Of a DNA stretch of 38,931 bases, positions 2,541 to 29,769 are shown piece by piece. Position numbers and translations under genes: made by a program. A model generated the notes under the pieces. The model did not search any database. It had not been told where the DNA came from and saw nothing but the letters and a program-made list of their open reading frames with translations. Within the stretch, counting starts at the first letter, position 1, and each line of letters opens with the position of its first letter. The DNA is from an uncultured bacterium (GTDB lineage: Bacteria; Patescibacteriota; Minisyncoccia; Minisyncoccales; Minisyncoccaceae), in NCBI GenBank assembly GCA_937870835.1, contig CALMWW010000005.1:1-38931 (forward strand), in the 5' to 3' direction.

Positions 2541-2589
2541 TTTTATTAAAATAATTAAATAAATAATAAAATAAATTAACAAAAACAAA

Positions 2590-3207
2590 ATGGAACAAAA
2601 CTCTTTTAAAATAAAAAATAAAGCAAAATATAATTTTGTTGTTTCTGGATCGGCTGATATTAAAATTTGTTGCCCTGATATTATTGAATTAAGCGAAAGA
2701 GTGGGTGCGGAGATAGCAATAAACGGGCATACTCTTATTACTGGCGCGACTAGCGGAGTGCCATATTATTGCGCTTTAGGTTGTAAAAAGGCGGGAGGAT
2801 TTAATGTGGGTTTTTCGCCAGCTGAATCTGAACTTTCCCATATTAAAAGGTATCACTTGCCAGTTGAACCATTTGATGTGATGATATATACAGGGGGAGA
2901 TTACGTGGGTCGCGATGTAACAATGACTAAAGCAGCTGACGCAGTTATTATAATTTGCGGACGAATGGGCACATTACATGAGTTTGCTACTGCTGTAGAA
3001 ACTAAAAAACCAATCGGTGTTTTAGAAAGAACTAAAGGAGTGGCTGATGAAATTAGGAATTTGATTAAACAGATTTATAGCCGTGAAAAAGAAAAAATTA
3101 TATTTGAAACAGAGCCAGAAATTTTAGTAAAAAAATTAATAAAAATTGTTGCGCAAAAGAAAAATAAAAGCAAATTATATATTAAAAATAAAAAAATAAA
3201 AAAATAG
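2590..3207 (+). CDS. LOG/SLOG Rossmann-fold protein (TIGR00725-like)
   Basis: A 205-residue protein with a nucleotide-binding Rossmann fold of the LOG (lysine decarboxylase-like) superfamily. The N-terminal strand FVVSGSAD (16-23) is followed by a glycine-rich segment LITGATSGVP (49-58) and by GRMGTLHE (124-131), a variant of the PGGxGTxxE motif that binds nucleotide in LOG phosphoribohydrolases. Known LOG proteins release free bases from nucleoside 5'-monophosphates; other SLOG proteins sense nucleotides. Replacement of PGG by CGR means substrate and activity cannot be assigned. The C-terminus is a short lysine-rich tail. The next gene follows after 8 bases, so co-transcription is likely. 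Confidence 0.7.
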   Translation: MEQNSFKIKNKAKYNFVVSGSADIKICCPDIIELSERVGAEIAINGHTLITGATSGVPYYCALGCKKAGGFNVGFSPAESELSHIKRYHLPVEPFDVMIYTGGDYVGRDVTMTKAADAVIIICGRMGTLHEFATAVETKKPIGVLERTKGVADEIRNLIKQIYSREKEKIIFETEPEILVKKLIKIVAQKKNKSKLYIKNKKIKK

Positions 3208-3215
3208 TTAATTTT

Positions 3216-3680
3216 ATGAAAAAAATTTCTAAAATTAAGATTAAAAATAATTCTCAAAAAAAAATTGTTAAATCTAAAACTAAAATCAAGATTAAAACAA
3301 AAACCAAAGCGAAAACCAAAACCAAAACCAAAACGACAAAAAGTAACATTACTCTTAAAGCAATAAAGAAAACTAAGTCAAACAAAAAGAATTTAAAAAT
3401 TATTAAATTAAAATCTAAAAATAATCAAGAAAAAAGAGTTGGTTTAGTTACTCATTATTTTAATAAAATTAAAGTTATGGCAGTAAAACTGCAAGGACCT
3501 TTATCAATTGGAGACACTATTCGAATTAAGGGCGGTCAAGGAACCAATTTTAAACAGAAAGTTTCTTCTTTAGAACTAAACAATGAAAAAATTAAGCAAG
3601 GTAAAAAAGGGCAAACAGTGGGAATTAAAACAAAAGAAAAAGTTAGAGAGGGCTACATAGTTTATAAAATAATACAGTAA
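3216..3680 (+). CDS. EF-Tu domain 2-like protein with Lys-Thr repeat tail
   Basis: A 154-residue protein in two parts. Residues 1 to about 70 are low-complexity and very basic, with alternating Lys-Thr dipeptides encoded by a tandem hexanucleotide. Residues from about 74 (RVGLVTHYFNKIKVMAVKL) to the end look like the beta-barrel of translation-factor domain 2, with the typical GPLSIGDTIRIKG and VGIKTKEKVREG segments. Similar short proteins are annotated as translation elongation factor-like in other genomes. There is no GTPase domain, so it is not a translation factor itself. An RNA- or ribosome-associated role is plausible given the basic tail but unproven. It is packed between the LOG-like gene and the EndoQ-like gene with gaps of 8 and 3 bases. 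Confidence 0.65.
   Translation: MKKISKIKIKNNSQKKIVKSKTKIKIKTKTKAKTKTKTKTTKSNITLKAIKKTKSNKKNLKIIKLKSKNNQEKRVGLVTHYFNKIKVMAVKLQGPLSIGDTIRIKGGQGTNFKQKVSSLELNNEKIKQGKKGQTVGIKTKEKVREGYIVYKIIQ
3312..3335 (+). repeat. Tandem hexanucleotide AAAACC, four units
   Basis: Three exact copies of AAAACC and one AAAACG encode the Lys-Thr run in the tail of the EF-Tu domain 2-like protein; less regular copies extend on both sides (about 3290-3342). Such runs can change length by slippage without shifting the frame. Confidence 0.8.
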
Positions 3681-12863: not shown

Positions 12864-13208
12864 TTACTTTGTTTTTTCTAATATTTTAGAAAAAATAGCA
12901 GGATTATTTTTAGCCAAATCGGCTAAAATTTTTCGGTCTATTTCAATATTAAATTTTTTAAGACCGGCTATGAATTTATTATAAGAAAGACCGCTTTCTT
13001 TACAAGCTGCAGCAATTTGAATTTGCCATAAACTTCGTTTAGCCCTTTTTAGATTTTTACGGTCTCTATAAGCATGAGACCAAGATTTCATTAAAGCTTG
13101 TTTGGCGGCTATATATTTTGATTTGCGGCTCCAGCGATATCCTTTTGTTTGCTTAAGGGTATTTTTTCTTCTTTTGTGGGAAGCTGTCCCTCGTTTTACT
13201 CTTACCAT
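12864..13208 (-). CDS. rplT: 50S ribosomal protein L20 (bL20)
   Basis: A 114-residue basic protein with the full L20 pattern: MVRVKRGTASHKRRKN at the start, then AKQALMKSWSHAYRDRKNLKR and RSLWQIQIAAACKESGLSYNKF. Length is normal. L20 binds 23S rRNA early in large-subunit assembly and in some bacteria represses its own infC operon. It is last in infC-rpmI-rplT, four bases after rpmI. Confidence 0.98.
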   Translation of the reverse strand: MVRVKRGTASHKRRKNTLKQTKGYRWSRKSKYIAAKQALMKSWSHAYRDRKNLKRAKRSLWQIQIAAACKESGLSYNKFIAGLKKFNIEIDRKILADLAKNNPAIFSKILEKTK

Positions 13209-13212: not shown

Positions 13213-13413
13213 TTATTTTATTCCTAATAATTTTTTTATTTTCTTAGCTTCAGGCTCTGACATTTTAACTAATTTTCTCAAAGCCCGTCTTTTCTTTCCA
13301 CTTTGTTTGCTCAAAAGATGGTCCTGTCCTACGGGCCTTCTCAAAACTTTTCCATTTTTTGTGATTTTAAATCTTTTGGCAATAGATTTTTTAGTTTTGC
13401 CTTTATTCTTCAT
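13213..13413 (-). CDS. rpmI: 50S ribosomal protein L35 (bL35)
   Basis: A 66-residue basic protein with the L35 signatures KSIAKRFKITKNGKVLRRP and HLLSKQSGKKRRALRK. It sits in its standard place between infC and rplT; only one base separates it from the infC stop codon. Confidence 0.97.
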   Translation of the reverse strand: MKNKGKTKKSIAKRFKITKNGKVLRRPVGQDHLLSKQSGKKRRALRKLVKMSEPEAKKIKKLLGIK

Positions 13414-13414: not shown

Positions 13415-13924
13415 CTATTTTTTAATAATTATCATTGATAAGCCATAGGGCTCTTTTTTTAATTCGTTTTCTGTTTTATATTCTATTTTTGAACCTAAGA
13501 TTTCCAAAAATTTTTCTATTTTTTGCTCTCCCACGCTTATTAGTCCTTTTTGGCGGCCACGCAATGGCAAGTCTACTTTTACTTTATCTCCTTTTTTTAA
13601 GAATTTTTCAGCAGCTAAAGCTTTAGTCTTAATATCATTTTCTGAAATATTAAAAGTTAAACGGATTGATTTTACAGCGCCACCCTTAGTTCCAGCATTC
13701 ATTTTTCTTTCTTTTTTTTGTAAAGCATAAAGATATTTGCCATAATCGCCAATTTTACAAACTGGCGGCTCTACTCTTTCAGTAACCTGAATTAAATCTA
13801 ATCCTTTTTGACGAGATATTTCTAAGGCTTGCGTCAACGGAACTACGCCTAATTGTTGGCCAGTTTCATCAATTAGCCTTACTTCTTTAGCCCTTATTTG
13901 ATTGTTTTGGAGTGGTTTATTCAA
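13415..13924 (-). CDS. infC: Translation initiation factor IF-3, start revised to a rare codon
   Basis: The protein has the IF-3 N-domain (NNQIRAKEVRLIDETGQQLG), the linker around EPPVCKIGDYGKYLYALQKK, and the C-domain (IRLTFNISENDIKTKA to the end). IF-3 binds the 30S subunit and proofreads start codons. The open frame continues upstream to an ATG at 14044, but those extra 40 codons are the 3' part of the tmRNA gene and carry no IF-3 homology. The real start must lie after the tmRNA end at 13935. Candidates are TTG at 13924 (169 residues, used here) or one of three ATT codons just before it (13927, 13930, 13933). ATT would match the AUU start of E. coli infC, used for self-regulation. There is no room for a ribosome binding site outside the tmRNA. 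Confidence 0.93.
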   Translation of the reverse strand: MNKPLQNNQIRAKEVRLIDETGQQLGVVPLTQALEISRQKGLDLIQVTERVEPPVCKIGDYGKYLYALQKKERKMNAGTKGGAVKSIRLTFNISENDIKTKALAAEKFLKKGDKVKVDLPLRGRQKGLISVGEQKIEKFLEILGSKIEYKTENELKKEPYGLSMIIIKK

Positions 13925-13934
13925 AATAATAATG

Positions 13935-14280
13935 TGGAGGTGGCGAGTAGTGAGCTCGCGTCCAAAAATTATCCAATTAATAATTCTACAAGCTTGTTCC
14001 GGCTTAATTAGGCTGAGGGAAGAAAGCCGGACAAAATTTCCCAAAGCTTTGATTTAATTTTGGTTCGGCAAATTTTCTTAAATCAAAAAAATTTACCTAT
14101 TCCGCAAAATTATGCCCTTTTCCACTTAGCGGAAGTTAGTGGGAGGACATGCATTAAGCGTAAGCTAATGCAGGTTGTTCAAATAAGTTGTCACTTATTG
14201 ATTTTCTCTAAGTTTTACGAGATTAGAGAAAACTCGGCTTGCATATTATTTTCAAATTTTTGTCGAAGCGATTCACCCCC
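13935..14280 (-). ncRNA. ssrA: tmRNA (one-piece, SsrA RNA)
   Basis: A 346-base tmRNA. The 5' end GGGGGTGAATCGCTTCGACA pairs through GGGGGTG with CACCTCC at the 3' end; the third pair is G-U, the alanine identity mark. P2 forms from AAAAATT, AATAAT and TGCAAG (5' side) with CTTGTA, ATTATT and AATTTTT (3' side). PK1 is seen as CGAG/CTCG plus TTTTCTCTAA/TTAGAGAAAA. The tag frame is at 14154-14192, inside and before a stem TGCATTAGC/GCTTAATGCA that contains the stop, as in E. coli helix 5. CCA is not encoded (ACAT after the stem). The T-arm GCGAG-CTCACTA-CTCGC has an atypical loop. Its first eight bases overlap the end of smpB, and infC starts within 2-11 bases of its 3' end. It rescues stalled ribosomes with SmpB. 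Confidence 0.96.
14154..14192 (-). other. tmRNA proteolysis-tag reading frame (DNLFEQPALAYA)
   Basis: After PK1 the bases TCAATAAGT precede GAC, the likely resume codon (compare TAGTC before GCA in E. coli). Reading from GAC gives DNLFEQPALAYA and a TAA stop. The PALA core resembles the YALAA end of E. coli, but the tag ends AYA. The exact resume codon is inferred; if it were the preceding AGT the tag would begin with Ser. Confidence 0.8.
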
Positions 14281-14737
14281 GTGTTTTTAATGTATTTTGG
14301 ATTTTTCTTTCGGTTTCCCGCTTCTTAATAGCTTCGCGTTTATCAAAAGCTTTTTTGCCTTTTGCTAAACCAATTTCCATCTTGAGGCGGTGGTTCTTAG
14401 TATAAACCAATAAAGGGATTAAAGTCAAGCCCCTTTCTTTTATTTTAACATTTAATTCATTAATTTCTTTTTTATGTAAAAGGAGCTTGCGGTCGCGCTG
14501 GGGAACATAAGATGAGCCAGCGTTTTGAGGTTGATAAGGAGGAATGTTTGCCCCAACCCAAAAAATTTCAGGAGAGCCATTTTTTTTCCGTTTGATAGCA
14601 ATATAATTTCCATACAGAGAAACTCCTCTTTGTCTTAATGCTTTAACTTCTTGTCCGGTTAATTCTAAGCCAGCTTCATAGCGTTCTAAAATTTCGTAAT
14701 TGTATTTTGCTTTTTTATTTTCTGCCAATATCGCCAT
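14273..14737 (-). CDS. smpB: SsrA-binding protein SmpB
   Basis: A 154-residue SmpB of normal length. The OB-fold core starts NKKAKYNYEILERYEAGLELTGQEVKALR and includes SLYGNYI, PYQPQNAGSSY, the RDRKLLLHKKEI segment, and the C-terminal GLAKGKKAFDKREAIKKRE, whose tail becomes helical in the decoding centre. SmpB carries tmRNA to stalled ribosomes. Its final codons CGG GGG TGA are also the first bases of the tmRNA gene: G14280 of the Arg codon is tmRNA base 1. The gene is divergent from argS with a 172-base gap that holds promoters for both directions. Confidence 0.97.
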   Translation of the reverse strand: MAILAENKKAKYNYEILERYEAGLELTGQEVKALRQRGVSLYGNYIAIKRKKNGSPEIFWVGANIPPYQPQNAGSSYVPQRDRKLLLHKKEINELNVKIKERGLTLIPLLVYTKNHRLKMEIGLAKGKKAFDKREAIKKRETERKIQNTLKTRG

Positions 14738-14776
14738 TTTATTTATATTATATTTTATTTATAGGATATTATATAT

Positions 14777-14805
14777 ATTATACAGGTTTTTTATTTTTTA
14801 GAAAA
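14777..14805 (-). promoter_or_regulatory. Candidate smpB-ssrA-infC operon promoter, proximal
   Basis: On the minus strand a perfect TATAAT (14782-14777), preceded by CTG, lies about 40 bases before the smpB ATG. The -35 position, 17 bases upstream, is a weak TTTTCT (14805-14800). Confidence 0.55.
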
Positions 14806-14821
14806 TCTTAGAGAGATATTA

Positions 14822-14851
14822 TTGCCTAAAAATGTTTTTTAGGTATATAAT
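14822..14851 (+). promoter_or_regulatory. Candidate upstream argS promoter
   Basis: TTGCCT (14822-14827), an 18-base spacer and TATAAT (14846-14851). The spacer contains CCTAAAA/TTTTAGG, an inverted repeat. The leader to argS would be about 50 bases. Confidence 0.6.
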
Positions 14852-14870
14852 CATAATTAACAGCTGTCAA
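14842..14870 (-). promoter_or_regulatory. Candidate smpB promoter, distal
   Basis: A perfect TTGACA (14870-14865) on the minus strand is followed after 17 bases by TATACC (14847-14842). It overlaps the rightward promoter at 14822-14851, so the two could compete. Confidence 0.45.
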
Positions 14871-14892
14871 CTGTTTATATTTTTTATTTTTC

Positions 14893-14901
14893 TGCTACAC
14901 T
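14893..14901 (+). promoter_or_regulatory. Extended -10 close to argS start
   Basis: TCTGCTACACT has TGC before TACACT (14896-14901), only eight bases before the argS ATG at 14910, so a transcript from here would be nearly leaderless. There is no good -35 box. Confidence 0.45.
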
Positions 14902-14909
14902 AAAACAAA

Positions 14910-16520
14910 ATGAATGCGCGTCAATATCTTACTAAAATAAGCCGAGAGGCTATTATAAAATTGTATCCCGAGTGGATAACTCAGAATAGTTCTAAGGAAT
15001 TAAAGGGAGTGCCAATTTTAAAGCCAAAAGAAAAATCTTTTGGCGATTATTCTATAGGAATAGCAATGCAAATTGCGAAAGAGCGGAAACAAAATCCAGA
15101 ACAAGTGGCCGAAGACCTTAAAGAAGCCTTATCAAAAGATGATGAATTTTTTGATTATTTTGATTTAGCGCAAGTTGTTGCCCCCGGTTTTATTAATTTT
15201 TATTTATCCAAACAATACTTATGGAAAATTGGTCAAGAAGTTTTAAGAAGGGGTAGTCACTTTGGAAATTTAAATATTGGGGAAAAACAAAAAATTCAAG
15301 TAGAGTTTGTCTCTGCTAATCCTACTGGTCCCTTAACTATTGGAAATGGGCGAGGCGGACCTTATGGAGATGTTCTGGCTAACATTTTTCAAAAAGCGGG
15401 CTATCAAGTTAGAAAAGCTTATTATATCAATGATTATGGCAACCAAATTTTAGCTTTAGGCCATTCAGTTTTAAAGGACAACGAAGCTAAGTATACTGGT
15501 GAATATATTGATAAATTACATCAAGAATTATCTTATTATAATGGCGATGCATATAAAATAGGAAAGCGCGCTGCCAAAATAATTTTAGAGAAAAGCATTA
15601 AGCCAACTCTTAAAAAACTAAATATTCAGTTTGATGAATGGTTTTCCGAAACAACTCTTTATAAAACAAAAGAAGTTGATAAAACAATTGCTTTATTAAA
15701 ACAAAAAGGATTTTTATATGAAAAAGACGGGGCAACTTGGTTTAAATCCACTGAGTTTGGCGATGAGAGAGATAGAGTAATTATAAAATCTGATGGGACA
15801 AAAACTTATTTAGCCGGAGATATTGCTTACCATTATTATAAGTTTAAAAAACAAAAATTTAATAAAGTAATAGATATTTGGGGAGCCGACCATTTTGGAG
15901 ATGTGCCGGGCTTAAGGGCTGGGGTAGAAGCTTTAGGCTATCAAGGAAAATTAGAAATCATTCTTTTACAATTTGTAACTATAATGAAAGATGGGAAGCC
16001 TATGAAAATGTCTAAACGATTAGGAACGGCAATTACCTTAGATGATTTGTTAGATGAATTGCCAGCAGATGTTATTAGATTTTTCTTTTTGGAGAAAAGT
16101 TCAGATACTCATTTAAATTTTGATATGAATTTAGCCAAAGAGCAATCAGAAAAAAACCCAGTTTATTATATTCAATATGCTTACGCAAGAATTAATAGTC
16201 TTTTAAGCAAAAATAATGGGAAATTAAAAAATGCCAAAGAGTTGAGCCCCTTAACCAAATCAAAAGAATTAGATTTATTAAAACAAATTAGCTATTTTCC
16301 AGAAATAATTGAAGACATTGCTAAAGACAAACAGGTTCAGCATTTAACGCAATATGTACTTGATTTAGCGGCAACTTTTCATATTTTTTATAATGATTGT
16401 TATGTTTTAGTAGATGATGAGCCATTAAGACAGGCAAGGTTAAGTTTAGTAAAAGCCACTCAGATTGTCTTAAAAAATACTTTAGATATTTTAGGTATTT
16501 CCGCGCCTAAAAAAATGTAA
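14910..16520 (+). CDS. argS: Arginyl-tRNA synthetase
   Basis: A 536-residue class I synthetase. Recognisable ArgRS blocks are KSFGDYSIGIAMQIAKE near 42-58, VEFVSANPTGPL (131-142), YINDYGNQILALGHS, IKSDGTKTYLAGDIAYH, WGADHFGDVPGL and KMSKR (366-370), with a C-terminal anticodon domain ending in a Leu-rich helix. The HIGH signature that normally follows GPL is TIGN (143-146), so both histidines are replaced; see findings. The enzyme charges tRNA-Arg in the cytoplasm. It opens the long rightward block of genes and is followed after 11 bases by the MGMT-like gene. Confidence 0.96.
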   Translation: MNARQYLTKISREAIIKLYPEWITQNSSKELKGVPILKPKEKSFGDYSIGIAMQIAKERKQNPEQVAEDLKEALSKDDEFFDYFDLAQVVAPGFINFYLSKQYLWKIGQEVLRRGSHFGNLNIGEKQKIQVEFVSANPTGPLTIGNGRGGPYGDVLANIFQKAGYQVRKAYYINDYGNQILALGHSVLKDNEAKYTGEYIDKLHQELSYYNGDAYKIGKRAAKIILEKSIKPTLKKLNIQFDEWFSETTLYKTKEVDKTIALLKQKGFLYEKDGATWFKSTEFGDERDRVIIKSDGTKTYLAGDIAYHYYKFKKQKFNKVIDIWGADHFGDVPGLRAGVEALGYQGKLEIILLQFVTIMKDGKPMKMSKRLGTAITLDDLLDELPADVIRFFFLEKSSDTHLNFDMNLAKEQSEKNPVYYIQYAYARINSLLSKNNGKLKNAKELSPLTKSKELDLLKQISYFPEIIEDIAKDKQVQHLTQYVLDLAATFHIFYNDCYVLVDDEPLRQARLSLVKATQIVLKNTLDILGISAPKKM

Positions 16521-16531
16521 AATAAAAGTTT

Positions 16532-16783
16532 ATGAAAACTTTTCAGGAAAAAGTGTTAGCAATTGTTAAAAAAATACCTAAAGGCAGGACATTAACTTAT
16601 AGAGAGGTGGCTAAACGAGCCGGAAGTCCGGGGGCTTATCGGGCAGTGGGCAATATCTTAAGCAAAAATTATGACCCCAAGATATTTTGCCATCGGGTTA
16701 TTAGAAGCGATGGAAAAATTGGCGGATATAATCGCGGAGTTAAGAAAAAAATAAAATTATTAAAGCAAGAAAAGTTTTTGTAG
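16532..16783 (+). CDS. MGMT/Ada C-terminal DNA-binding domain protein
   Basis: An 83-residue protein equal to the DNA-binding domain of O6-alkylguanine-DNA alkyltransferases, with no N-terminal domain. Visible features are the helix-turn-helix (GRTLTYREVAKRAG), the arginine-finger segment YRAVGNIL (R37), and FCHRVIRSDGKIGGYNRG, where C53 matches the alkyl-acceptor Cys of PCHRV, although the Pro is Phe. Alkyltransferase-like (ATL) proteins of this size usually have Trp instead of the Cys, so this one may still transfer alkyl groups or may act as a lesion sensor. It lies 11 bases after argS. Confidence 0.85.
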   Translation: MKTFQEKVLAIVKKIPKGRTLTYREVAKRAGSPGAYRAVGNILSKNYDPKIFCHRVIRSDGKIGGYNRGVKKKIKLLKQEKFL

Positions 16784-16806
16784 GGTATTTTAAAAGATAA
16801 TATAAT
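16778..16806 (+). promoter_or_regulatory. Promoter for the histidine phosphatase-ileS unit
   Basis: TTGTAG (16778-16783), a 17-base spacer and a perfect TATAAT (16801-16806). The -35 box overlaps the end of the MGMT-like gene; the leader would be about 34 bases. Confidence 0.7.
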
Positions 16807-16846
16807 TGCTTAAAATTTAGGAAAATGTTAATTTATTAATATAAAT

Positions 16847-17434
16847 ATGAGCTTAAAATTAAAAAATAATTATTTTTTGTTAAGGCATGGAAAAAATATT
16901 CACCAGACTGTAAAGAAGGATATTGTTTATGAGTGGCCAGACGATCCAGAACCATGCGTTCTTTTAGAAGAAGGAAAAGCAGAAGCTGAGGCAGCTGGTT
17001 ATGTATTAAAAAACCAAAATATTAATTTAATTTTTTGTTCGGATATATGCCGAACCAAACAGACCGCTGAGATTGTGGCAGAAATTATTGGTTTTTCTAA
17101 AAATAAAATAATTTACGACGCACGCTTAAGAGATATAAATTGGGGAATTTTAGGAGGTAAAACAAAAAAACAAGCTTGGGAATTTTTTAATGGAGATCCT
17201 TTAAGAAAATTTGAACAAGCTGTACCCCAAGGAGAAAGCTGGAATGATTGTCAAAGCAGGATGCTTAATCTTTTAACTGAAATAGAAAATAAATATGCGG
17301 GCAATAATATTTTAATAGTTTCGCATGGAGACCCTTTATGGCTTTTGGAATGTTATTTTAAGGGATTAAATTATGAAGAAGCATTAAAATATAGAGAAAG
17401 ATTAATTAAAACTGGAGAAGTAAGAAAATTATGA
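16847..17434 (+). CDS. Histidine phosphatase family protein (phosphoglycerate mutase-like)
   Basis: A 195-residue protein of the branch-1 histidine phosphatase superfamily. The phospho-acceptor signature is LRHGKN (R13, H14, G15). Other conserved parts are CSDICRTKQTAEIVAE, RLRDINWGILGGKTKKQ with the catalytic acid region, and VSHGDPLWLL with the second catalytic His. The family includes phosphoglycerate mutases, phosphatases of nucleotides and sugars, and others; sequence alone does not choose. It overlaps ileS by four bases (ATGA), a sign of translational coupling. Confidence 0.85.
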   Translation: MSLKLKNNYFLLRHGKNIHQTVKKDIVYEWPDDPEPCVLLEEGKAEAEAAGYVLKNQNINLIFCSDICRTKQTAEIVAEIIGFSKNKIIYDARLRDINWGILGGKTKKQAWEFFNGDPLRKFEQAVPQGESWNDCQSRMLNLLTEIENKYAGNNILIVSHGDPLWLLECYFKGLNYEEALKYRERLIKTGEVRKL

Positions 17435-20289
17435 ATAATGAAGAAAAAATATTAGAATTTTGGGATAAGCAAGATATATTTCATAAATCTATTAAAAATA
17501 GGGAAGGAGCGCCATTCTTTAGTTTTTATGATGGACCGCCTTTTGCCACTGGCAAACCTCATTATGGTCATATTTTGACAACCACATTAAAAGATGCGGT
17601 TTTGCGCTATTGGACCATGAAGGGCTATCAAGTCCCGCGCCGAGTGGGGTGGGATTGTCATGGTTTGCCAGTTGAAAATTTGATTGAGAAGCAGTTAGAC
17701 ATTAAAAACAAAAAACAAATCGAAGAATTAGGTATTGAAAAATTTAATGAATCCTGCCGAGCGTCTGTTTTTACTTGTGTGGCTGATTTTGAGAAAACAT
17801 TAAAGAGAGTAGGGCGTTGGGCTGATTATGACCAAGCCTATGCTACTTTAGAAAATAATTATATTGAATCAGTTTGGTGGGTGTTAAAACAGCTTTGGGA
17901 TAAAAATTTAGTTAAAAAAAATTATCGGGTTTCTCCTTATTGTCCTCGTTGCGGGACAACTTTATCAAATTTTGAAGTTAATCAAGGATATAAAGAAACA
18001 AAAGACGTTTCTATTTATGTAAAATTTAAGATTAGTGATGAAAAATTTAAGGATGCTAATTTTTTAGTTTGGACTACTACCCCTTGGACCCTGCCAGGCA
18101 ATGTTGCTTTAGCTGTTAATCCAAAATTGACTTATTGTTTAGTGAAAAATAATAATGAATTATATGTTTTAGCTAAACCTCGCTTAAATGTATTAGAAGG
18201 AGAATTTGAAATTATAAAAGAAATATTAGGTCAAGAGCTGATAGGAACAAAATATGAGCCTATATTTTTTGATTTAATAGAAGCCAAACCAGAAAATATT
18301 GAAAATGCGTTTCAAGTTTTAGAAGGAGATTTTGTGACTGCCGAAGATGGAACCGGAGTTGTCCATATTAATCCTATGCACGGAGAAGATGATTTTAATT
18401 TAGGAGCAAAATATAAATTGCCGACCTATCATTTAATTGATGAAATGGGGAAGTTTAAATTAGAGGTTAAAAATTATGGAGGTGAGTTTGTTAAAGAAGC
18501 GGACAAAAAAATTTTAGAAGACCTAAAAGAACAGCATATTTTTTATAAACAAGAATTAGTTACGCACGAATATCCATATTGTTGGCGGTGCGATACTCCC
18601 TTAATTTATTATGCGATTGAAAGTTGGTATATTTTAGTGACTGAATTTAAAGACAAGCTTATTAGCAATAATCAAAAAATTCATTGGGTGCCAGCCCATA
18701 TTAGAGAAGGAAGATTTGGAAAATGGTTAGAAGGAGCGCGAGATTGGAATTTTGCAAGAGAAAGATTTTGGGGCGCCCCCATTCCAATTTGGGAATGTGG
18801 AGAGTGTGGGAGAAAAGTTTGTATAGGCAGTTTAGCTGAATTAAAACAATTAGCAGCTCAAGAATATGACTTAAAAGATTTGCATCGTCCTTATATTGAT
18901 GAGGTAAAATTAAAATGCCAATGCGGCAGTGGAATGAAGCGGGTTTTGAGCGTATTTGATTGTTGGTTTGAATCAGGGTCTATGCCGTATGCTCAATGGC
19001 ATTATCCGTTTGAGAATAAAGAATTAGTGGAAAAAACTTATCCCGCTGATTTTATTGCGGAAGGATTAGACCAAACACGAGGTTGGTTTTATACTCTTCA
19101 TGTAATTGCTGCAGCCTTAACATTAGACGATATTGGTCTTGGCAAAGACAATCCTGCCTTTAAGAATGTAATTGTTAATGGATTAGTTTTAGATGCTCAA
19201 GGACGCAAACTTTCCAAAAAATTAAAAAATTATCCTGATGTAACAGATATATTTTTAAAATACGGAGCTGATGCTTTGCGATATTTTTTATTGGCTTCTA
19301 CCAATATTGGAGAAGAATATAGATTTTCTGAAGACAAAGTTAAAGATGTTTGGCGTCAAGTTATTTCCGGTCTTGAAAACTGTTTCATTTTTTACAACAC
19401 TTATAAAAATGAGTTTACTTGGACAGGACTAAAAGATTCTAAAAATATTTTAGACCAATGGATTTTAAGTAGAATTGAAAAAACAAACAAAGAAGTTGAT
19501 AAATGGATGAGTCAATATGAGTTAACCAAAGCAGCTAGACCAATAGGAGAGTTTATAGAAGAATTATCTAATTGGTATATTCGTCGTTCTCGCCGTCGTT
19601 TTCAAAAGCCAAAAGACATAGCTGAAAAGGAAGAGGCTTTGGCGACCTTATATTATGTTTTAATGAAATTTGTTAAATTGTCTGCTCCTTTTATTCCATT
19701 TTTAACAGAATATATTTATCAAGCCCTAAAAACAGAAAATGATTTAGAAAGCGTTCATCTATGTGACTATCCTCAAGCTGATGAAAATTTTATTAACGAA
19801 AATTTAGAAAAACAAATGGAAGATATTCGCGCCATTGTCAATTTAGCTTTAGCGGAAAGACAAAAATTAGGAATTAAAGTTAGACAGCCGTTATCAGAAT
19901 TAAAGATAAAAAATAAAGATTTAAACATAGACCTTCTTCCATTAATTGAAGATGAAATAAATGTTAAAAAAATAATTTTTGATCCTTTTCTTGAAAATAA
20001 AATTTGGTTAAATCCAATGCTTACAGAAGAATTAAAAGAAGAAGGGCTGGTTAGGGAATTGGTTAGGCAAATTCAGCAAATACGCAAAGAGATGAAATTA
20101 GTGCCAGCTCAAAGAATTGTAATCTACTATCAAAAATCTGATTTTTTTGATAAGATAATATTACGAAATAAAAAAATTATTTTGAATGAAGTTTTGGGTG
20201 ATGATATAATAATTGAATCAGAAGTTAAGGGAGGGGTAAAACTAAGCTTAGATGGTCAAGATATTTTTTTGAGTATTAGAAAAATATAA
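17431..20289 (+). CDS. ileS: Isoleucyl-tRNA synthetase, eukaryal-like type 2
   Basis: A 952-residue class I synthetase. The ATP-site signatures are HYGH (44-47) and KLSKK (593-597). The editing domain includes FLVWTTTPWTLPGNVALAV and GTGVVHINPMHGEDD. The segment VFDCWFESGSMPYAQ (508-522) and FIAEGLDQTRGWFYTLHVIA match the eukaryal/archaeal form (IleS2) rather than the common bacterial form. Type 2 enzymes are known to be less sensitive to mupirocin. The C-terminal part has the anticodon-binding domain and a tail (KMEDIRAIVNLALAERQKL-like) typical of the long form. The start codon overlaps the stop of the preceding phosphatase. Confidence 0.96.
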   Translation: MNNEEKILEFWDKQDIFHKSIKNREGAPFFSFYDGPPFATGKPHYGHILTTTLKDAVLRYWTMKGYQVPRRVGWDCHGLPVENLIEKQLDIKNKKQIEELGIEKFNESCRASVFTCVADFEKTLKRVGRWADYDQAYATLENNYIESVWWVLKQLWDKNLVKKNYRVSPYCPRCGTTLSNFEVNQGYKETKDVSIYVKFKISDEKFKDANFLVWTTTPWTLPGNVALAVNPKLTYCLVKNNNELYVLAKPRLNVLEGEFEIIKEILGQELIGTKYEPIFFDLIEAKPENIENAFQVLEGDFVTAEDGTGVVHINPMHGEDDFNLGAKYKLPTYHLIDEMGKFKLEVKNYGGEFVKEADKKILEDLKEQHIFYKQELVTHEYPYCWRCDTPLIYYAIESWYILVTEFKDKLISNNQKIHWVPAHIREGRFGKWLEGARDWNFARERFWGAPIPIWECGECGRKVCIGSLAELKQLAAQEYDLKDLHRPYIDEVKLKCQCGSGMKRVLSVFDCWFESGSMPYAQWHYPFENKELVEKTYPADFIAEGLDQTRGWFYTLHVIAAALTLDDIGLGKDNPAFKNVIVNGLVLDAQGRKLSKKLKNYPDVTDIFLKYGADALRYFLLASTNIGEEYRFSEDKVKDVWRQVISGLENCFIFYNTYKNEFTWTGLKDSKNILDQWILSRIEKTNKEVDKWMSQYELTKAARPIGEFIEELSNWYIRRSRRRFQKPKDIAEKEEALATLYYVLMKFVKLSAPFIPFLTEYIYQALKTENDLESVHLCDYPQADENFINENLEKQMEDIRAIVNLALAERQKLGIKVRQPLSELKIKNKDLNIDLLPLIEDEINVKKIIFDPFLENKIWLNPMLTEELKEEGLVRELVRQIQQIRKEMKLVPAQRIVIYYQKSDFFDKIILRNKKIILNEVLGDDIIIESEVKGGVKLSLDGQDIFLSIRKI

Positions 20290-20308
20290 AAATTTTTAAT
20301 TTAATTTT

Positions 20309-20620
20309 ATGGAATTTCAAACACCGATTGAAAAACCGGGAGCAAAACAAAATTTTTCCGCTGCCTCAAAGCCGTGGTCAAAGAAAACTCATTCTGAAAA
20401 AGATTTAATTAAACAGCCAAAACAAGACTCATTAAAAAATATTGGAGAGTGGCGGCAAAGAGTTCCGAGCAGCAATCAGCAAAGAGACCCTCTAAAAAAT
20501 AAAAAATCAAAACAAAATTTAGCTGCTCTGAAAGAAAGAGCTCTTTTCAAAGACAAAAAAGAGCTTTTGAAAGAGCAGGAGCGTCTTAAATTCTATAAAG
20601 TTAAATTTTTAAAAAAATGA
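20309..20620 (+). CDS. Small charged hypothetical protein
   Basis: A 103-residue protein of unknown function. It is hydrophilic, rich in Lys, Gln and Ser, with a disordered-looking first half (KPGAKQNFSAASKPWSKK) and a charged helical C-terminal half from LAALKERALFKDKKELLKEQ. There is no signal peptide or membrane segment. Its last four bases overlap the start of the DUF11-like surface protein (ATGA), so the two are probably translated together. It may be a cytoplasmic partner of that membrane protein, which is a guess from position only. Confidence 0.6.
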   Translation: MEFQTPIEKPGAKQNFSAASKPWSKKTHSEKDLIKQPKQDSLKNIGEWRQRVPSSNQQRDPLKNKKSKQNLAALKERALFKDKKELLKEQERLKFYKVKFLKK

Positions 20621-22236
20621 GCCGAAAAACTATTTTTATATTAATTTTTTTCATTATCATCGCCGCGATTTTGGGTTTTACTTGGTTCCAAATGTCTTAT
20701 TCTAAAGAAGTTTTGAAATTGGAAATTTTGGGTCCTAGTAAGGCCGATACCGGCGAAAGCATTACTTATACTGTTAAATTTAAGAATAATGGCAATGTTC
20801 GTTTAGAAAATCCAGAATTGTATTTTACTTTTCCTGATGGAGCAATTACCGAGAATGGACAAAAAGTGGTGCGCTTAGATTCAACAGCCCTGAAAGGGGA
20901 TATTTATCCGGGCGAAGAAAGGTCTTTTCAATTTAAGGCGCGCTTAATGGGACGGACCAACGAAATTAAAGAAGCCCAAGCAAGAATGACTTTTCAACCG
21001 TCTGGATTAAAAACTAAAAACGAAGTTAAAACTAGTTTTACAATTATTTTAGGCAATGTGCCGATAAGTTTAAATATTCAAATGCCTGACCAAGTGGCTA
21101 ACAATAAAGTGTTTACAATTAATATTAATTATACTTCCAATGTTTCTTATCCCTTGAATGATTTAACTATCAAAGTGCAACTGCCGCCCGAATTTACTCT
21201 GGTTAGTCAAAAACCAAAAGGCATAGATAATGAATGGAATATCCCGGTTTTAAACGAAATGAGCGGTGGCAATATTCAGTTGATTGGTTCATTATCGGGT
21301 CAAGATAAAGATAAAAAAGTTTTTAAGGCTGAATTAGGTATATGGCAAAATGGTAATTTTGTGTCCCTTAAAGAAGCAGTAAGAAATGTAGAAATTATTG
21401 CTCCCTCTATTTATTTATCTCAAACAATTAATAATAGCGATGCTTATGCAGCTAGTCCAGGCGACCAATTACATTATCAAATTTTATTTACCAATATCGG
21501 TCAAGATGCTCTTAAAGACATTGTTCTTATTAGCCGTTTAAGCGGTAATTATCTTGATTTAAATTCTGTTAGAGTGCCAATTGGAAACTATCAACAAGGA
21601 GATAATTCAATAATTTGGGACAGCTCTCAAATTCCTGAATTAAATTATTTAGCTCCGGGGCAAACTGGAAAAGTTGAATTTTGGGTAAATGTTAATAAAC
21701 GCTGGGCTATAAACAGCCAAGCCGATATTAACCCAGTTATTAAAAATACTGTTACAATTGGACAAAATACACAGGAATTTATTACAAAAATTAATTCTTC
21801 TTTAGTGGCTGAGCAAAAAATATATAATGAAAGTAAATATTTTATCAATTCTGGCCCTTATCCTTTGAAAGTTGGTCAAAAAACTTATTTAACCGTAGAA
21901 TGGACAGCTAAAAATTATTATAACGATATGGAGGGCGTGATTATGAAAGCAGTTTTGTCGCCCAATGTTAATTTTGAAAATAAAATTTATCCAGAAGATA
22001 TGAAAATTAGCTATGATGCTGGCACACAGGAGGTGACTTGTACTATTGGGTCATTAAAGGCTGGCGCTGGATTTTTGTCTGAAGCTTCCAAGTGTGCGTT
22101 TCAAGTTTCTATTATCCCTGAATTAAATGAAGATGCCTTAATTACCGGAGCCTTAGAAATAACCGGCAATGATCAATGGACCGGCAAACAAATAAGCGCT
22201 CAAACCGAGCCAAGTTATGTTCCGGTTTTTGAATAA
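20617..22236 (+). CDS. Membrane-anchored surface protein with DUF11-like repeats
   Basis: A 539-residue protein with one N-terminal membrane helix (about residues 5-24, after MSRK) and a long predicted external part. At least three beta-sandwich repeats are visible, each opening with a phrase such as GESITYTVKFKNNGNVRLENPEL, NKVFTININYTSNVSYPLNDL or GDQLHYQILFTNIGQDALKDI. These resemble the DUF11/conserved repeat domains of cell-surface proteins. A cell-surface or adhesion-stalk role is likely. There is no LPXTG or C-terminal membrane segment; it is held by its N-terminal helix. It sits between the small charged protein and the pilin-like protein. Confidence 0.75.
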   Translation: MSRKTIFILIFFIIIAAILGFTWFQMSYSKEVLKLEILGPSKADTGESITYTVKFKNNGNVRLENPELYFTFPDGAITENGQKVVRLDSTALKGDIYPGEERSFQFKARLMGRTNEIKEAQARMTFQPSGLKTKNEVKTSFTIILGNVPISLNIQMPDQVANNKVFTININYTSNVSYPLNDLTIKVQLPPEFTLVSQKPKGIDNEWNIPVLNEMSGGNIQLIGSLSGQDKDKKVFKAELGIWQNGNFVSLKEAVRNVEIIAPSIYLSQTINNSDAYAASPGDQLHYQILFTNIGQDALKDIVLISRLSGNYLDLNSVRVPIGNYQQGDNSIIWDSSQIPELNYLAPGQTGKVEFWVNVNKRWAINSQADINPVIKNTVTIGQNTQEFITKINSSLVAEQKIYNESKYFINSGPYPLKVGQKTYLTVEWTAKNYYNDMEGVIMKAVLSPNVNFENKIYPEDMKISYDAGTQEVTCTIGSLKAGAGFLSEASKCAFQVSIIPELNEDALITGALEITGNDQWTGKQISAQTEPSYVPVFE

Positions 22237-22244
22237 TTAATAAA

Positions 22245-22658
22245 GTGAAATTTTCATATTCAACCAAAACACTTTTTTTTCGTTCTCTGTCGGCAATAAT
22301 TGTTTTTGGATTATCTTTTTCCATACCAATTTTTATTTTTCAGCAATTAAAAATTTCTGCTTATAATACAATTATTCAACAGAATATGGAATCATTTAAA
22401 AATTGGGCGATGATTTATAATATAAAAAAAAATACCTATCAAGGACTTTTAACTGACATTAACATAATTAAAGAACAAGAAGAGATTAAAAAAATAGGAA
22501 GCAAAATTGATATTTATATTGATTCTAATGGTCAAAGTTATTGCGCTAAAACTAACTTTATTGGCCTTTCAAAAAATAAAATATATTGTGTAGATTCTTT
22601 TGGATACTCTGGTTACGATGGCTATTGCGGCAGTTTAGATATTCCAAAATGTAAATAA
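22245..22658 (+). CDS. Pilin-like small membrane protein, GTG start
   Basis: A 137-residue protein starting with GTG, eight bases after the preceding stop. A hydrophobic helix (about 12-33) leads straight into an amphipathic helix (NTIIQQNMESFKNWAMIYN), then a small C-terminal part with four cysteines in YCAKT, YCVDSFG, YCGS and PKC. This shape, with a C-terminal YCVDSxG phrase, resembles minor pilins of Patescibacteria, but the prepilin cleavage motif G-F-T-L-I-E is missing. It could be a non-cleaved pilin-like protein or an unrelated exported protein stabilised by disulfides. Neighbourhood: surface-protein gene upstream, glyQS downstream with its own promoter. Confidence 0.55.
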   Translation: MKFSYSTKTLFFRSLSAIIVFGLSFSIPIFIFQQLKISAYNTIIQQNMESFKNWAMIYNIKKNTYQGLLTDINIIKEQEEIKKIGSKIDIYIDSNGQSYCAKTNFIGLSKNKIYCVDSFGYSGYDGYCGSLDIPKCK

Positions 22659-22666
22659 ATTTTAAG

Positions 22667-22694
22667 TTGCGAAAGAGAGTAAATATGCTAAAAT
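22667..22694 (+). promoter_or_regulatory. Promoter of glyQS
   Basis: TTGCGA (22667-22672), a 16-base spacer and an extended -10, TATGC-TAAAAT (-10 at 22689-22694). The leader to glyQS is about 39 bases. Confidence 0.7.
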
Positions 22695-22739
22695 CAAGAC
22701 AGGGTTTGATGTTTCATAAAAGTTTAATATTATAAAATT

Positions 22740-24125
22740 ATGGAAGAAAATTTAGACAAAATTGTTTCATTTTGCAAGAGAAAGGGCTTCGTATTCCAAT
22801 CTTCAGAAATTTACGGCGGCTTTGCCGCAGTTTATGATTATGGGCCTTATGGCGCTTTATTAAAAAACAATATTCGCGATGCTTGGTTGAAACAAATGCT
22901 TCAATCGCAGAACAATATAGTAGTTTTAGATAGCGCTATTTTTATGCATCCTTTAGCTTGGAAGGCTTCAGGTCATTTAGATAATTTTGACGATCCTCAA
23001 ATAGATTGTAAAAAATGTAAAAATAGAATGCGGGCTGACCAAGTTTTAGAATCTTTTGGCATTAACGCAGACAAGGCTCCTTTAGATTTTATAAATAGCG
23101 AATTAGACAAGCTTAGAAAAGCAGGTAAATTAAAATGTCCGGTTTGTGGTTCTAAAGATATTACTCCAGCTAAAAGATTTTCTTTAATGGTAAAATCTAA
23201 TTTAGGTTCGCCAACCGAATCATTAAATGATTCAGAAGCAGTTTACTTGCGTCCGGAAACTTGTGGGGGCATTTATCTTAATTATAAAAATATTTTAGAT
23301 TCAACAAGAGTAAAAATACCATTTGGAGTAGCGCAAGTAGGCAAGGCTTTTCGCAATGAAATTGTAGCTCGGCAATTTATTTTTAGAACGCGCGAGTTTG
23401 AGCAAATGGAAATGCAATATTTTTTACATCCGAGCCAAATGAAAGAAAAATACGAAGAGTGGAGGAATATCCGTTATCAATGGTATTTAGAATATGGTAT
23501 TGAAGAAAAAGATATTCAATGGCATCGTCACGAAAAATTAGCGCATTATGCGAGCGAAGCTTATGATATTGAGTATGATTTTAAGTGCATAGGAGGATTT
23601 AAGGAGGTGGAAGGAATTCATGCTAGAGGAAATTGGGATTTGTCTCAGCATTCAAAATTTTCAGGAGCAGATTTATCTTACCATGACGAAAATGGTGAAA
23701 AATTTATTCCTCATATTTTAGAAACATCTGCTGGTTTAAATAGGTTTTTCTTAATGTTTATAGATAAAGCTTATACCGAAGAAGCAGTGAATGGGGAAAC
23801 GAGAGTAGTTTTGAAATTAGACCCGCGCTTAGCTCCCATAAAGGCAGCCATTTTCCCGCTTTTGAAAAACAAACTTCAACTTAAAGAAAAAGCTCAAGAA
23901 GTTTATAATCTTTTGAAATTAGAAATGATGTGCGAATATGATGACAGCGGTAATATTGGCAAAAGCTATCGCCGCCAAGACGAAATTGGCACACCTTATT
24001 GTATCACTATTGATTTTGACACATTAGAAGATAATACCGTTACTGTTAGAGACAGAGACACTATGCAGCAAGAAAGGATTAAGATTGATAATTTAGTAAG
24101 TTATTTATTAAAGAATTTGCAATAA
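22740..24125 (+). CDS. glyQS: Glycyl-tRNA synthetase, dimeric (eukaryal/archaeal) type
   Basis: A 461-residue class II synthetase in one chain, the alpha2 form, not the GlyQ/GlyS two-gene form. Features: KRKGFVFQSSEIYGGFAAVYDYGPYG at the start (motif 1 region), the cysteine-bearing insertion IDCKKCKNRM with KCPVCGSKDIT, YLRPETCGGIYLNYKN, motif 2 AFRNEIVARQFIFRTREFEQMEMQYF, motif 3 around SAGLNRFFLMFIDKAY, and the C-terminal anticodon domain ending RQDEIGTPYCITIDF and VTVRDRD. It charges tRNA-Gly. It has its own promoter and is followed one base later by a membrane-protein gene. Confidence 0.97.
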   Translation: MEENLDKIVSFCKRKGFVFQSSEIYGGFAAVYDYGPYGALLKNNIRDAWLKQMLQSQNNIVVLDSAIFMHPLAWKASGHLDNFDDPQIDCKKCKNRMRADQVLESFGINADKAPLDFINSELDKLRKAGKLKCPVCGSKDITPAKRFSLMVKSNLGSPTESLNDSEAVYLRPETCGGIYLNYKNILDSTRVKIPFGVAQVGKAFRNEIVARQFIFRTREFEQMEMQYFLHPSQMKEKYEEWRNIRYQWYLEYGIEEKDIQWHRHEKLAHYASEAYDIEYDFKCIGGFKEVEGIHARGNWDLSQHSKFSGADLSYHDENGEKFIPHILETSAGLNRFFLMFIDKAYTEEAVNGETRVVLKLDPRLAPIKAAIFPLLKNKLQLKEKAQEVYNLLKLEMMCEYDDSGNIGKSYRRQDEIGTPYCITIDFDTLEDNTVTVRDRDTMQQERIKIDNLVSYLLKNLQ

Positions 24126-24126
24126 T

Positions 24127-25203
24127 ATGCTTAAAAAAATTTCTTATACTCTAAAAGTAGCATTGCCAATTTTGGGTTGGGCAATTTTATGCATATTTTT
24201 CTTTTTTACTTTAATTATTTCTACAACTCAGTTTGGGCAATCAGGCAATTATAGCTTTTTTTTGAAGTTTGTTTTAACCCTATCTATTGTTTTAGTAATT
24301 TTAGTAATTTTAAGAATGAGCGGGCTTTTGGGAGGAGGGGATATAAAAACAATTAATAAAAATATTATAGATGAGACTTTAAATCCTCAGATATCTCTTG
24401 AAGAGGCGCAAAAAACTTTTTATTATTTAGTGCGTTTTTGCCGCAATAATTTTAGCCATTTAATTTGGATTGGTTTACCTCTCACTATTTTGGTGGGGAG
24501 TATAATGAAGGTTTATAAAAATATTTCTGAGGCAGATTTTTTAATTATTTTAGCAAGTGGAGTTGTATCAATGGTTTTATCGGCTGTTTTTGCTTCTTTA
24601 TATTCTGAATATGCGACCTTCCCAGTTATTAAGGCTATCCGAAAAAAAATAATTCAATCAAATGGAAAAATTCCTAAAATTAATTTTGATAGCATAATGT
24701 CAAAGTTTTATTTTTTATTTCTTTTCCCAATCATTACCATGCTCGTTGTTTTAATTTGCGTTTTTCCTTTCGGTTTTAATGTGGTCATTCTTTCTTTAAT
24801 TGGCACAGTGATGATTTTGATTATTGACCGGGTAATATTTTTATATTTAACAAAATCATTTTTTGAGACGCAAGAATTTGCCCAAGAAATGTATCAAGGC
24901 AAAGAAGAAATTTTTGCTATTGGCAGCATAGACAAAGAATTTGTTGAGTTAATGGATAATTTGAATGCAGCTGGTGAAAAGGTTTGGTCATTAAAGCAAG
25001 AATCTGATTTGGCGCGAAAAAATATGGAGGAAAAAGTTAAAGAATTGGAAAAATTTTTTGACTTAACCATTAATCGTGAAATTAAAATGGTTGAATTAAA
25101 AAAAGAATTAAAAGCAGCCAAACAGGCCCTAAAAGAGTTTAAAAATAGAAAAACAAAGAATAAAAAAAATGACAAAACAAACAATAAAACAAAAAAATTA
25201 TAA
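24127..25203 (+). CDS. Polytopic membrane protein with C-terminal coiled coil
   Basis: A 358-residue protein not matched to a named family. Two hydrophobic helices lie near 12-34 and 44-64, and about four more between 110 and 245. The soluble C-terminal part after about 255 is charged and helical; it runs through VELMDNLNAAGEKVWSLKQESDLARKNMEEKVKELEKFFDLTINREIKMVELKKELK. This part resembles the linker that follows HAMP or PAS domains in sensor proteins, but no kinase, cyclase or receiver domain follows. It may be a sensor remnant or a scaffold. It follows glyQS after one base and overlaps the M16 peptidase gene by 35 bases. Confidence 0.6.
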   Translation: MLKKISYTLKVALPILGWAILCIFFFFTLIISTTQFGQSGNYSFFLKFVLTLSIVLVILVILRMSGLLGGGDIKTINKNIIDETLNPQISLEEAQKTFYYLVRFCRNNFSHLIWIGLPLTILVGSIMKVYKNISEADFLIILASGVVSMVLSAVFASLYSEYATFPVIKAIRKKIIQSNGKIPKINFDSIMSKFYFLFLFPIITMLVVLICVFPFGFNVVILSLIGTVMILIIDRVIFLYLTKSFFETQEFAQEMYQGKEEIFAIGSIDKEFVELMDNLNAAGEKVWSLKQESDLARKNMEEKVKELEKFFDLTINREIKMVELKKELKAAKQALKEFKNRKTKNKKNDKTNNKTKKL

Positions 25204-26461
25204 TAAAATAACTTTAGAAAATGGGTTAAGAATTATTACAATTCCTCAAAAAGAAACCAAAGCGGTAACAATTTTAGTATTGGTGGGAACTGGTTCTAAA
25301 TATGAAACTAAAAATATATCTGGCGTTTCTCATTTTTTAGAACATATGTTTTTTAAGGGCACCAAAAAAAGAAAAACGCCTACGGAAATAGCAGAGTTTT
25401 TAGATAGGTTGGGCGGAGATTATAATGCTTTTACTAGCGAAGAAATGACTGGTTATTATGCTAAAGTAGAAGCTAATCATTTTAAGGAAGCGTTAGATTG
25501 GGTTGCGGATATATTTTTACATTCAACCTTGCCCATACAAGAAATAGAAAAAGAGCGGGGAGTAATTATTGAAGAGATTAAAATGTATGAAGACAATCCA
25601 ATGCGTTATATTGGAGAAATTTGGAAAGAGCTGCTTTATGGAGATCAGCCAGCAGGATGGGATATTGCTGGAACACGAAAAACTGTTTCTCAAATTAAAA
25701 GAGAAGATTTATTAAAGTATATGGCCACTCAATATGTAGCCAAAAACACAATTATTTGTGTGTCTGGTAATTTCCAAGAGCAGGAGGCAATTAGTAAAGT
25801 TAAAAATCAATTTCTTAATATCCGAACCGGAACTTATAAAGACAAGCCAAAAGTTAATGAATGCCAGACCAAACCTCAAACAAAATTGCTTTATAAAGAT
25901 ATTAAACAAACTCATATTGCTTTAGGAGTGAGGGCTTATAATATTTTTCACCCAGACCGTTTTGTTTTAGATATTTTAGCTATTTTATTAGGAGGAATGA
26001 TGAGCTCGCGCTTGTTTAATAAAGTTCGTGAAAAATTAGGAGCAGCTTATTATGTTAGAACTAATTATGAAAGCGATACAGATACAGGAGAAGTGGTAAC
26101 TTTTACGGGAGTAGATAATGCTAAATTAGAAAAAGTTATTAAGACAATTTTACAAGAATATAAAAAAATTACTAAAGAGAAATTAGGAGCAGCTGAATTA
26201 AAAAAGGTTAAAGATTGTTATAAAGGAAGATTAATTTTAGGATTAGAATCATCTGACGATAAAGCATCTTTTTATGCTACTCAAGAGCTACTAATGAAAA
26301 ATATTTTAACCCCAGAGCAAATTATTGAAAAGATTGAAAAAATAACAGCAGTAGACATTCAAAGAGTGGCGCGGGACATTTTTGTTCCTGAAAAATTAAA
26401 CTTCGCTATTTTAGGGAAACACAAAGATGATAAACTTTTTCAAAAATTATTGCATTTTTAA
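25169..26461 (+). CDS. M16 family zinc metallopeptidase (insulinase/processing peptidase-like)
   Basis: A 430-residue protein with the inverted zinc motif HFLEH (H55, E58, H59) and the downstream Glu in GVIIEEIKMYEDNP (E135 or E136). The second, inactive-type domain includes the conserved SSRLFNKVREKLGAAYYV. Length matches bacterial M16B peptidases. No signal peptide is seen, so it is probably cytoplasmic, acting on peptides or short proteins. The start ATG lies inside the end of the preceding gene; a later start would cut the conserved first strand (ITLENGLRIITIP), so the overlap is likely real. Confidence 0.93.
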   Translation: MTKQTIKQKNYNKITLENGLRIITIPQKETKAVTILVLVGTGSKYETKNISGVSHFLEHMFFKGTKKRKTPTEIAEFLDRLGGDYNAFTSEEMTGYYAKVEANHFKEALDWVADIFLHSTLPIQEIEKERGVIIEEIKMYEDNPMRYIGEIWKELLYGDQPAGWDIAGTRKTVSQIKREDLLKYMATQYVAKNTIICVSGNFQEQEAISKVKNQFLNIRTGTYKDKPKVNECQTKPQTKLLYKDIKQTHIALGVRAYNIFHPDRFVLDILAILLGGMMSSRLFNKVREKLGAAYYVRTNYESDTDTGEVVTFTGVDNAKLEKVIKTILQEYKKITKEKLGAAELKKVKDCYKGRLILGLESSDDKASFYATQELLMKNILTPEQIIEKIEKITAVDIQRVARDIFVPEKLNFAILGKHKDDKLFQKLLHF

Positions 26462-26513
26462 TAATAATATAATTAATATATTAAAAGCTTAAAATTATAA
26501 AAATAAATTTTTT

Positions 26514-27542: not shown

Positions 27543-27548
27543 ATTCAA

Positions 27549-29024: not shown

Positions 29025-29769
29025 TACACATGCCCATCTTAATTTTTCTGATTTTGACGAAGATAGAGAAGAAATAATTACAGAATGCGGAAAAAATAAT
29101 ATTAAAATAATCAATCCGGGGACTGATTTAACTACTTCTATTTCTGCTGTTGAATTAGCGCGTCAATATAATAATGTATATGCTGGCATAGGAATGCATC
29201 CAACTGAAATTAATAATTTAGATTTTCAACCCGAAGATTATAAAAAACTTTTTTGTTCTAAAGTTGTGGCAATTGGGGAAATTGGTTTAGATTTTTGGCG
29301 ATTACCAAAACAAGAAGATGACCGAAATAATGAGATAAAAAAACAAGAAATTATTTTTAATCAGCAATTAGACTTAGCTTCCGAATTTAATTTGCCTATT
29401 ATTGTCCATTGCCGAGCTGCCTTTGATTCTGTTTTTAAGATTCTTCAAATTAAACAATGCCAAGGAGTTTTACATTGTTTTAGCGGCAATTGGAAAGAGG
29501 CTCAAAAATTTTTAGATTTAGGTTTTTATTTAGGAATAGATGGTATTATTTTTAAGTTAAATCTAATTGATGTAATAAAAAATTGTCCCTTAAACAAGAT
29601 ATTGCTTGAAACAGATTGTCCTTTTTTATCTCCGCCTAATTTTTCAAAAAGAAATACGCCCTTATCCTTGCCTATAATAGCCAAAGAAGTGGCAAAAATT
29701 AAAAATATCAGCGTAAAAGAGGTAGAAGAAATTACAGACCGCAATGCCAAAACATTATTTAATATCTGA
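29017..29769 (+). CDS. tatD: TatD family DNase/hydrolase
   Basis: A 250-residue metal-dependent hydrolase with all TatD landmarks: FDTHAHLNFSDFDEDR (H4, H6), GEIGLDFWR (catalytic Glu), IVHCRAA, VLHCFSGN and LLETDCPFLSP. TatD proteins are 3'-5' exonucleases acting on DNA or RNA with repair or turnover roles. The start overlaps the end of metG, so translation is likely coupled. It ends 35 bases before the next gene, with a promoter in that gap. Confidence 0.95.
   Translation: MFDTHAHLNFSDFDEDREEIITECGKNNIKIINPGTDLTTSISAVELARQYNNVYAGIGMHPTEINNLDFQPEDYKKLFCSKVVAIGEIGLDFWRLPKQEDDRNNEIKKQEIIFNQQLDLASEFNLPIIVHCRAAFDSVFKILQIKQCQGVLHCFSGNWKEAQKFLDLGFYLGIDGIIFKLNLIDVIKNCPLNKILLETDCPFLSPPNFSKRNTPLSLPIIAKEVAKIKNISVKEVEEITDRNAKTLFNI

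Follow-up and report, generated by a model that had tools for sequence, protein, structure and literature searches.

Overlapping smpB and tmRNA genes in a patescibacterial lineage, with an apparent ssrA promoter in the codons of smpB

Introduction

The window analysed here, 38,931 nucleotides of contig CALMWW010000005.1 from an 822-kb draft genome in 158 contigs, carries an smpB gene whose stop codon lies inside ssrA, the gene for tmRNA. This arrangement raises the question of how tmRNA is produced from such a locus, and what becomes of the smpB message when it is. The overlap itself, a promoter motif embedded in smpB codons, the tie of that motif to an adjacent ssrA and the neighbouring infC gene are all read directly from the sequences compared. 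Taken together, the anatomy and the predicted promoter point with considerable confidence to a compacted smpB–ssrA–infC locus, in which the signals that usually occupy spacers are nested in neighbouring genes.

Anatomy of the smpB–ssrA junction

The features at the junction and upstream of it are as follows.

14737–14273, minus strand: smpB, 154 aa, ATG to TGA (PF01668, E = 1.3e-47, residues 5–151)
13935–14280, minus strand: ssrA, mature one-piece tmRNA (RF00023 match, tag frame and acceptor stem fold)
14273–14280, minus strand: 8-nt overlap, the final smpB codons and stop being tmRNA nt 1–8
14738–14909, no strand assigned: argS–smpB gap between divergent genes, with TTGACA and TATA-rich sequence (weak scan hits)

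The Rfam model RF00023 matches the minus strand from 14280 to 13932 over its full length (model positions 1–374) with a score of 118 bits, against a cut-off of 47 (E = 1.1e-45). In this placement, tmRNA base 1 is G14280, the second base of a CGG codon in the smpB 3′ end, which reads AAA ACA CGG GGG TGA on the minus strand. The smpB stop codon at 14275–14273 is therefore the UGA of tmRNA nt 6–8. The first-pass annotation had described this eight-base overlap exactly, and the span that it gave, 13935–14737, comprises smpB and the mature tmRNA.

The acceptor stem has 7 bp, formed by GGGGGUG (14280–14274) and CACCUCC (13942–13936), contains the G–U pair at position 3 and is recovered when the region is folded without constraints. 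The tag reading frame ends in DNLFEQPALAYA-stop, a degradation-like tail that is similar in most family members. The discriminator base is A at 13935, and CCA is not encoded, the sequence there being ACAT. ARAGORN called no tmRNA at 13932–14280, where the Rfam match is clear, and surveys of Patescibacteria based on that program may consequently undercount tmRNA genes.

A misassembly or a misplaced tmRNA start was considered and rejected. Whereas a draft of 158 contigs would give some room for an assembly or annotation artefact at the junction, identical junctions occur in many separately assembled genomes and the acceptor stem pairs exactly, so that an artefact is exceedingly improbable.

Upstream, the argS–smpB gap is the likely site of smpB's own promoter, judging from its sequence. 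An aminoacyl-tRNA synthetase cluster extends over 14910–32463, with Arg, Ile/Val-type, Met and Leu types by Pfam and, by eye, a glycine-type synthetase at 22740–24125.

The overlap among relatives

Among named genomes, the nearest relatives are metagenome-assembled members of Patescibacteria / Candidatus Paceibacterota (Parcubacteria group). The identical 8-nt overlap is found in 18 of the 19 family genomes in which both genes are readable, which excludes chance; in the remaining genome, G016, a frame change has produced a 19-nt overlap. Beyond the family, 104 further loci of the order comprise 27 with the +8 overlap, 4 with another overlap, 39 with the stop 0–14 nt ahead of the tmRNA, 32 with a longer gap and 2 that are unreadable. 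The overlap had been called unusual at the outset, yet within this lineage it is shared by 45 of the 123 order loci. One further +8 locus (G223) comes from outside the order. The junction is thus largely kept within the family, while many relatives in the order have a spacer of 0–14 nt or more.

Families of the order contain +8 and short-spacer states side by side, and an SmpB tree implies ~25 changes of overlap state, an upper figure given that a tree of one short protein is weakly resolved. Judged by this distribution, the overlap is a labile state, gained and lost easily. Against a purely labile state, its retention across the source family exceeds what would be expected of one.

The sequence of tmRNA itself suggests how such overlaps arise. 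The Rfam consensus for the tmRNA 5′ end, GGGGRUGA, has a built-in UGA at nt 6–8, and TGA occupies this position in 77/122 order loci. An smpB frame without its own stop that entered the tmRNA in the right register would read xGG GGR UGA and terminate there. If no promoter were required between the two genes, the smpB–ssrA spacer would be free to shrink, and its loss would then yield an 8-nt overlap and an [R/W/G]-G C-terminus. As predicted from this register, overlapping SmpBs end in RG, WG or GG; the registers +1, +17, +18, +19 and +30 are also seen. The overlap would thus be a ready-made result of spacer loss, because the tmRNA start carries UGA at nt 6–8.

A predicted ssrA promoter in smpB codons

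The spacer could be dispensable in this way if ssrA were transcribed from within smpB, where two elements are predicted.

14423–14428, minus strand: –35-like TTGACT of the predicted ssrA promoter, in smpB Leu-Thr codons
14399–14404, minus strand: –10-like TATACT of the predicted ssrA promoter, in smpB Tyr-Thr codons

The resulting motif, TTGACT-18-TATACT (14428–14399), matches a sigma70-type promoter at 10/12 positions with a spacing in the 16–18 nt range, and ends 118 nt before tmRNA base 1. It is spelled by the codons of a conserved L-T-x-x-P-x-x-x-Y-T stretch of SmpB. Transcription is predicted to start at ~14392, giving a leader of ~112 nt. A general promoter scan returned 12 sites, this one among them, against 6.8 expected. 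An excess of this size was not taken as sufficient proof, and codon and adjacency controls were therefore added.

In the family alignment, synonymous conservation peaks at codons 111–130, reaching 2.4 times expectation. The conserved bases there are TTG ACT and TAT ACT, and the 18-nt spacer between them varies more. Across the order, the Leu codon of the motif is TTG in 114/115 cases, compared with 20% elsewhere in smpB, and the Thr codon is ACT in 85%, compared with 26% elsewhere. A site matching at least 10/12 positions lies 60–420 nt upstream of the tmRNA in 137/146 loci; on the reverse strand, 3/146 loci have one. In overlapping loci, the –10 end is a median of 118 nt from tmRNA base 1.

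Where the motif departs from its usual codons, a promoter-like sequence is found nearby. In G063 and G364, Tyr-Ser is written TAC TCT and TATACT recurs two bases upstream, in a shifted register. The motif is lost in three f4 genomes and in G335, each of which has another promoter-like site close by.

These observations bear on the simplest alternative, pure compaction, in which the overlap is neutral, the promoter-like codons reflect protein conservation and AT-rich usage, and tmRNA derives from the smpB promoter. Such genomes are small and AT-rich, and generic scans of them yield many chance sites, as the 6.8 expected among the 12 returned illustrates. However, the codon bias at the motif is far above that of the rest of smpB, and the motif both persists in a shifted register and is absent where ssrA lies elsewhere (see below), which leaves pure compaction very unlikely. 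Instead, ssrA is apparently transcribed from a sigma70-type promoter of its own that lies within the smpB frame, and most tmRNA would probably derive from a short transcript without complete smpB. The open-access literature searched, on overlaps of smpB and ssrA, on ssrA promoters within smpB, on tmRNA of Patescibacteria and on ssrA beside infC, yielded nothing recognisable as the present arrangement.

Dependence of the motif on an adjacent ssrA

The tie between motif and neighbour was examined in a phylum-wide sample, with 'adjacent' defined as ssrA up to 373 nt downstream of smpB. The promoter motif is present in 34 of 41 smpB genes with an adjacent ssrA, compared with 1 of 64 without (p = 1.7e-19, uncorrected for relatedness). 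All 17 genes with a gap of <50 nt have the motif, and the 7 adjacent smpB genes that lack it have gaps of at least 57 nt, which could accommodate a promoter between the genes. When independent pairs were drawn from all branches of the tree, 6 were for, 0 against and 4 tied (p = 0.03); restricting this phylogeny-corrected test to well-supported branches left two pairs, too few for a result. Several ssrA genes located away from smpB have a promoter-like site 8–17 nt before tmRNA base 1.

The association extends to the protein. Tyr is followed by T, N or S in 33/41 adjacent compared with 13/64 non-adjacent smpB genes, a bias that fits a requirement for the codons to spell TATANT. SmpB residue choice is thus apparently steered by the promoter, and part of the conservation of SmpB in these bacteria would lie at the level of the DNA.

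Against a strict dependence on adjacency, the motif is retained 467–491 nt away in three order loci where an insertion separates smpB from ssrA. In G319 (L234), G290 (L155) and G295 (L170), a frame of ~85–105 aa separates the two genes, the smpB motif being retained; by eye, the inserted frames resemble GIY-YIG nuclease domains (MYYVYILKS...LYTGHT).

Viral contigs also carry smpB. On L339 (IMGVR_UViG_3300006037_000015, ~2501–3282), smpB is followed by a tmRNA that matches the permuted and betaproteobacterial Rfam models, and TTGACA-18-TATAAT lies in the corresponding L-T...Y-N codons, which makes this contig a possible parallel case of a codon-embedded promoter. The contigs L336, L350, L344 and L333 have smpB and an RF04321 (permuted tmRNA) match, without the full promoter motif.

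Downstream genes

Three genes follow ssrA on the same strand.

13415–13924, minus strand: infC (IF-3; PF05198/PF00707), TTG start
13213–13413, minus strand: rpmI (L35; PF01632)
12864–13208, minus strand: rplT (L20; PF00453)

The TTG start of infC at 13924 lies 10 nt past the tmRNA discriminator base, where relatives have ATG, and infC is the next gene after ssrA in 119/123 order loci. The interval is too short to accommodate a promoter for infC itself, so that infC mRNA is likely to arise by read-through from ssrA, in a transcript that would be punctuated by tmRNA processing. No Shine-Dalgarno sequence is visible ahead of infC; directly upstream lies the tmRNA 3′ strand CACCUCC, which is anti-Shine-Dalgarno-like (13922–13942). 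After tmRNA 3′ processing, translation of infC may therefore take place on an mRNA that has almost no leader.

Fate of the smpB message

For the compacted locus we infer promoter activity, a start site, processing, read-through and tolerance of the consequences, in the following scheme. The internal promoter would supply most tmRNA and then read through into infC-rpmI-rplT. RNase P would trim the ~112-nt leader from these short transcripts to yield tmRNA, and with infC only a few nucleotides past the tmRNA 3′ end, tmRNA processing would punctuate the transcript. Long transcripts from smpB's own promoter would hold smpB as well as tmRNA; RNase P cleavage of these before 14280 would produce an smpB message that breaks off at ...ACA C and has no stop. 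In turn, a ribosome in the act of termination on the UGA would mask the acceptor strand and slow tmRNA folding.

That RNase P cleavage before G14280 would strip the last smpB codons and the stop, as the first-pass annotation pointed out, follows from the geometry, and the genome has an RNase P RNA gene. It had further been suggested that this loss constitutes a selected, self-limiting loop, in which tmRNA maturation cuts smpB mRNA and SmpB–tmRNA tags the product, thereby keeping SmpB in check. smpB would be read to its stop only on unprocessed transcripts, tmRNA maturation and SmpB completion would be mutually exclusive on each RNA molecule, and SmpB made from cut messages would be tagged; if true, homeostasis between SmpB and tmRNA, the two components of the rescue machinery, would be built into the locus. 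The geometry, by which every processed long transcript loses the smpB stop, the RNase P RNA gene and an overlap that is kept in 18/19 family genomes are all in keeping with the idea, although none points to it specifically. It also has a precedent in ArfA, a rescue factor whose mRNA lacks a stop and whose synthesis is repressed by trans-translation (PMC3985003).

The predicted promoter within smpB, however, would uncouple tmRNA output from smpB mRNA, and the overlap is absent from most of the order and changes often. The overlap by itself cannot discriminate in favour of a loop, as relatives with 0–3 nt spacers would face a nearly equal 3′-end problem. The view that tmRNA synthesis necessarily consumes smpB mRNA is not supported, given the conserved sigma70-type motif. 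An ssrA promoter inside smpB had been named in advance as an observation that would count against the loop; in part it is now at hand, as a conserved motif, and tmRNA need not derive from the smpB message. Relatives with a spacer had been named as a second such observation, and many exist in the order. The loop is weakened in its strong form, in which tmRNA synthesis marks the smpB message, since most tmRNA is probably at no stage joined to a complete smpB. A selected loop is accordingly rated unlikely, as is the mutual exclusion on each molecule that it entails, and processed long smpB transcripts without a stop are probably a tolerated side effect of the compacted locus.

Comparison with known systems

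Across much of the phylum, a structured RNA gene apparently has its promoter in the codons of its partner protein and, in the source family, the body of the RNA also supplies the stop codon of that protein. For Patescibacteria, the junction provides a concrete rule by which the ends of smpB and tmRNA can be annotated, and the locus is a natural system in which competition of translation, RNase P processing and ribosome rescue on one transcript could be studied.

In mitochondrial tRNA punctuation, RNA genes abut or overlap reading frames and are excised by RNase P and a 3′ endonuclease. The present locus likewise has a structured RNA gene overlapping a reading frame; it differs in that the RNA has its own predicted internal promoter and that the overlapped frame encodes its partner protein. 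Intragenic sigma70 promoters, those within reading frames, are a second point of reference, in comparison with which the present motif is conserved phylum-wide within a single protein motif and apparently constrains both codons and residues.

In Streptomyces coelicolor, smpB is also immediately upstream of ssrA and most tmRNA is reported to come from ssrA's own promoter, and the parts of that report consulted describe neither an overlap nor an smpB-embedded promoter (PMC2635970). The likeness to ArfA lies in a rescue factor whose message would be non-stop and a substrate of trans-translation (PMC3985003). For ArfA, cleavage is by RNase III and its effect has been demonstrated, whereas here RNase P would be the nuclease and SmpB itself the target, as predicted from geometry. 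In promoter sequence there is a resemblance to Escherichia coli, in which smpB lies directly upstream of ssrA and the strong sigma70 ssrA promoter, TGGTCA-18-TATACT, shares the TATACT element and 18-nt spacing and ranked first among the RpoD-binding peaks of a SELEX study (PMC3946193). In E. coli this promoter occupies the smpB–ssrA spacer, whereas in the present locus there is no spacer and the predicted promoter lies inside smpB.
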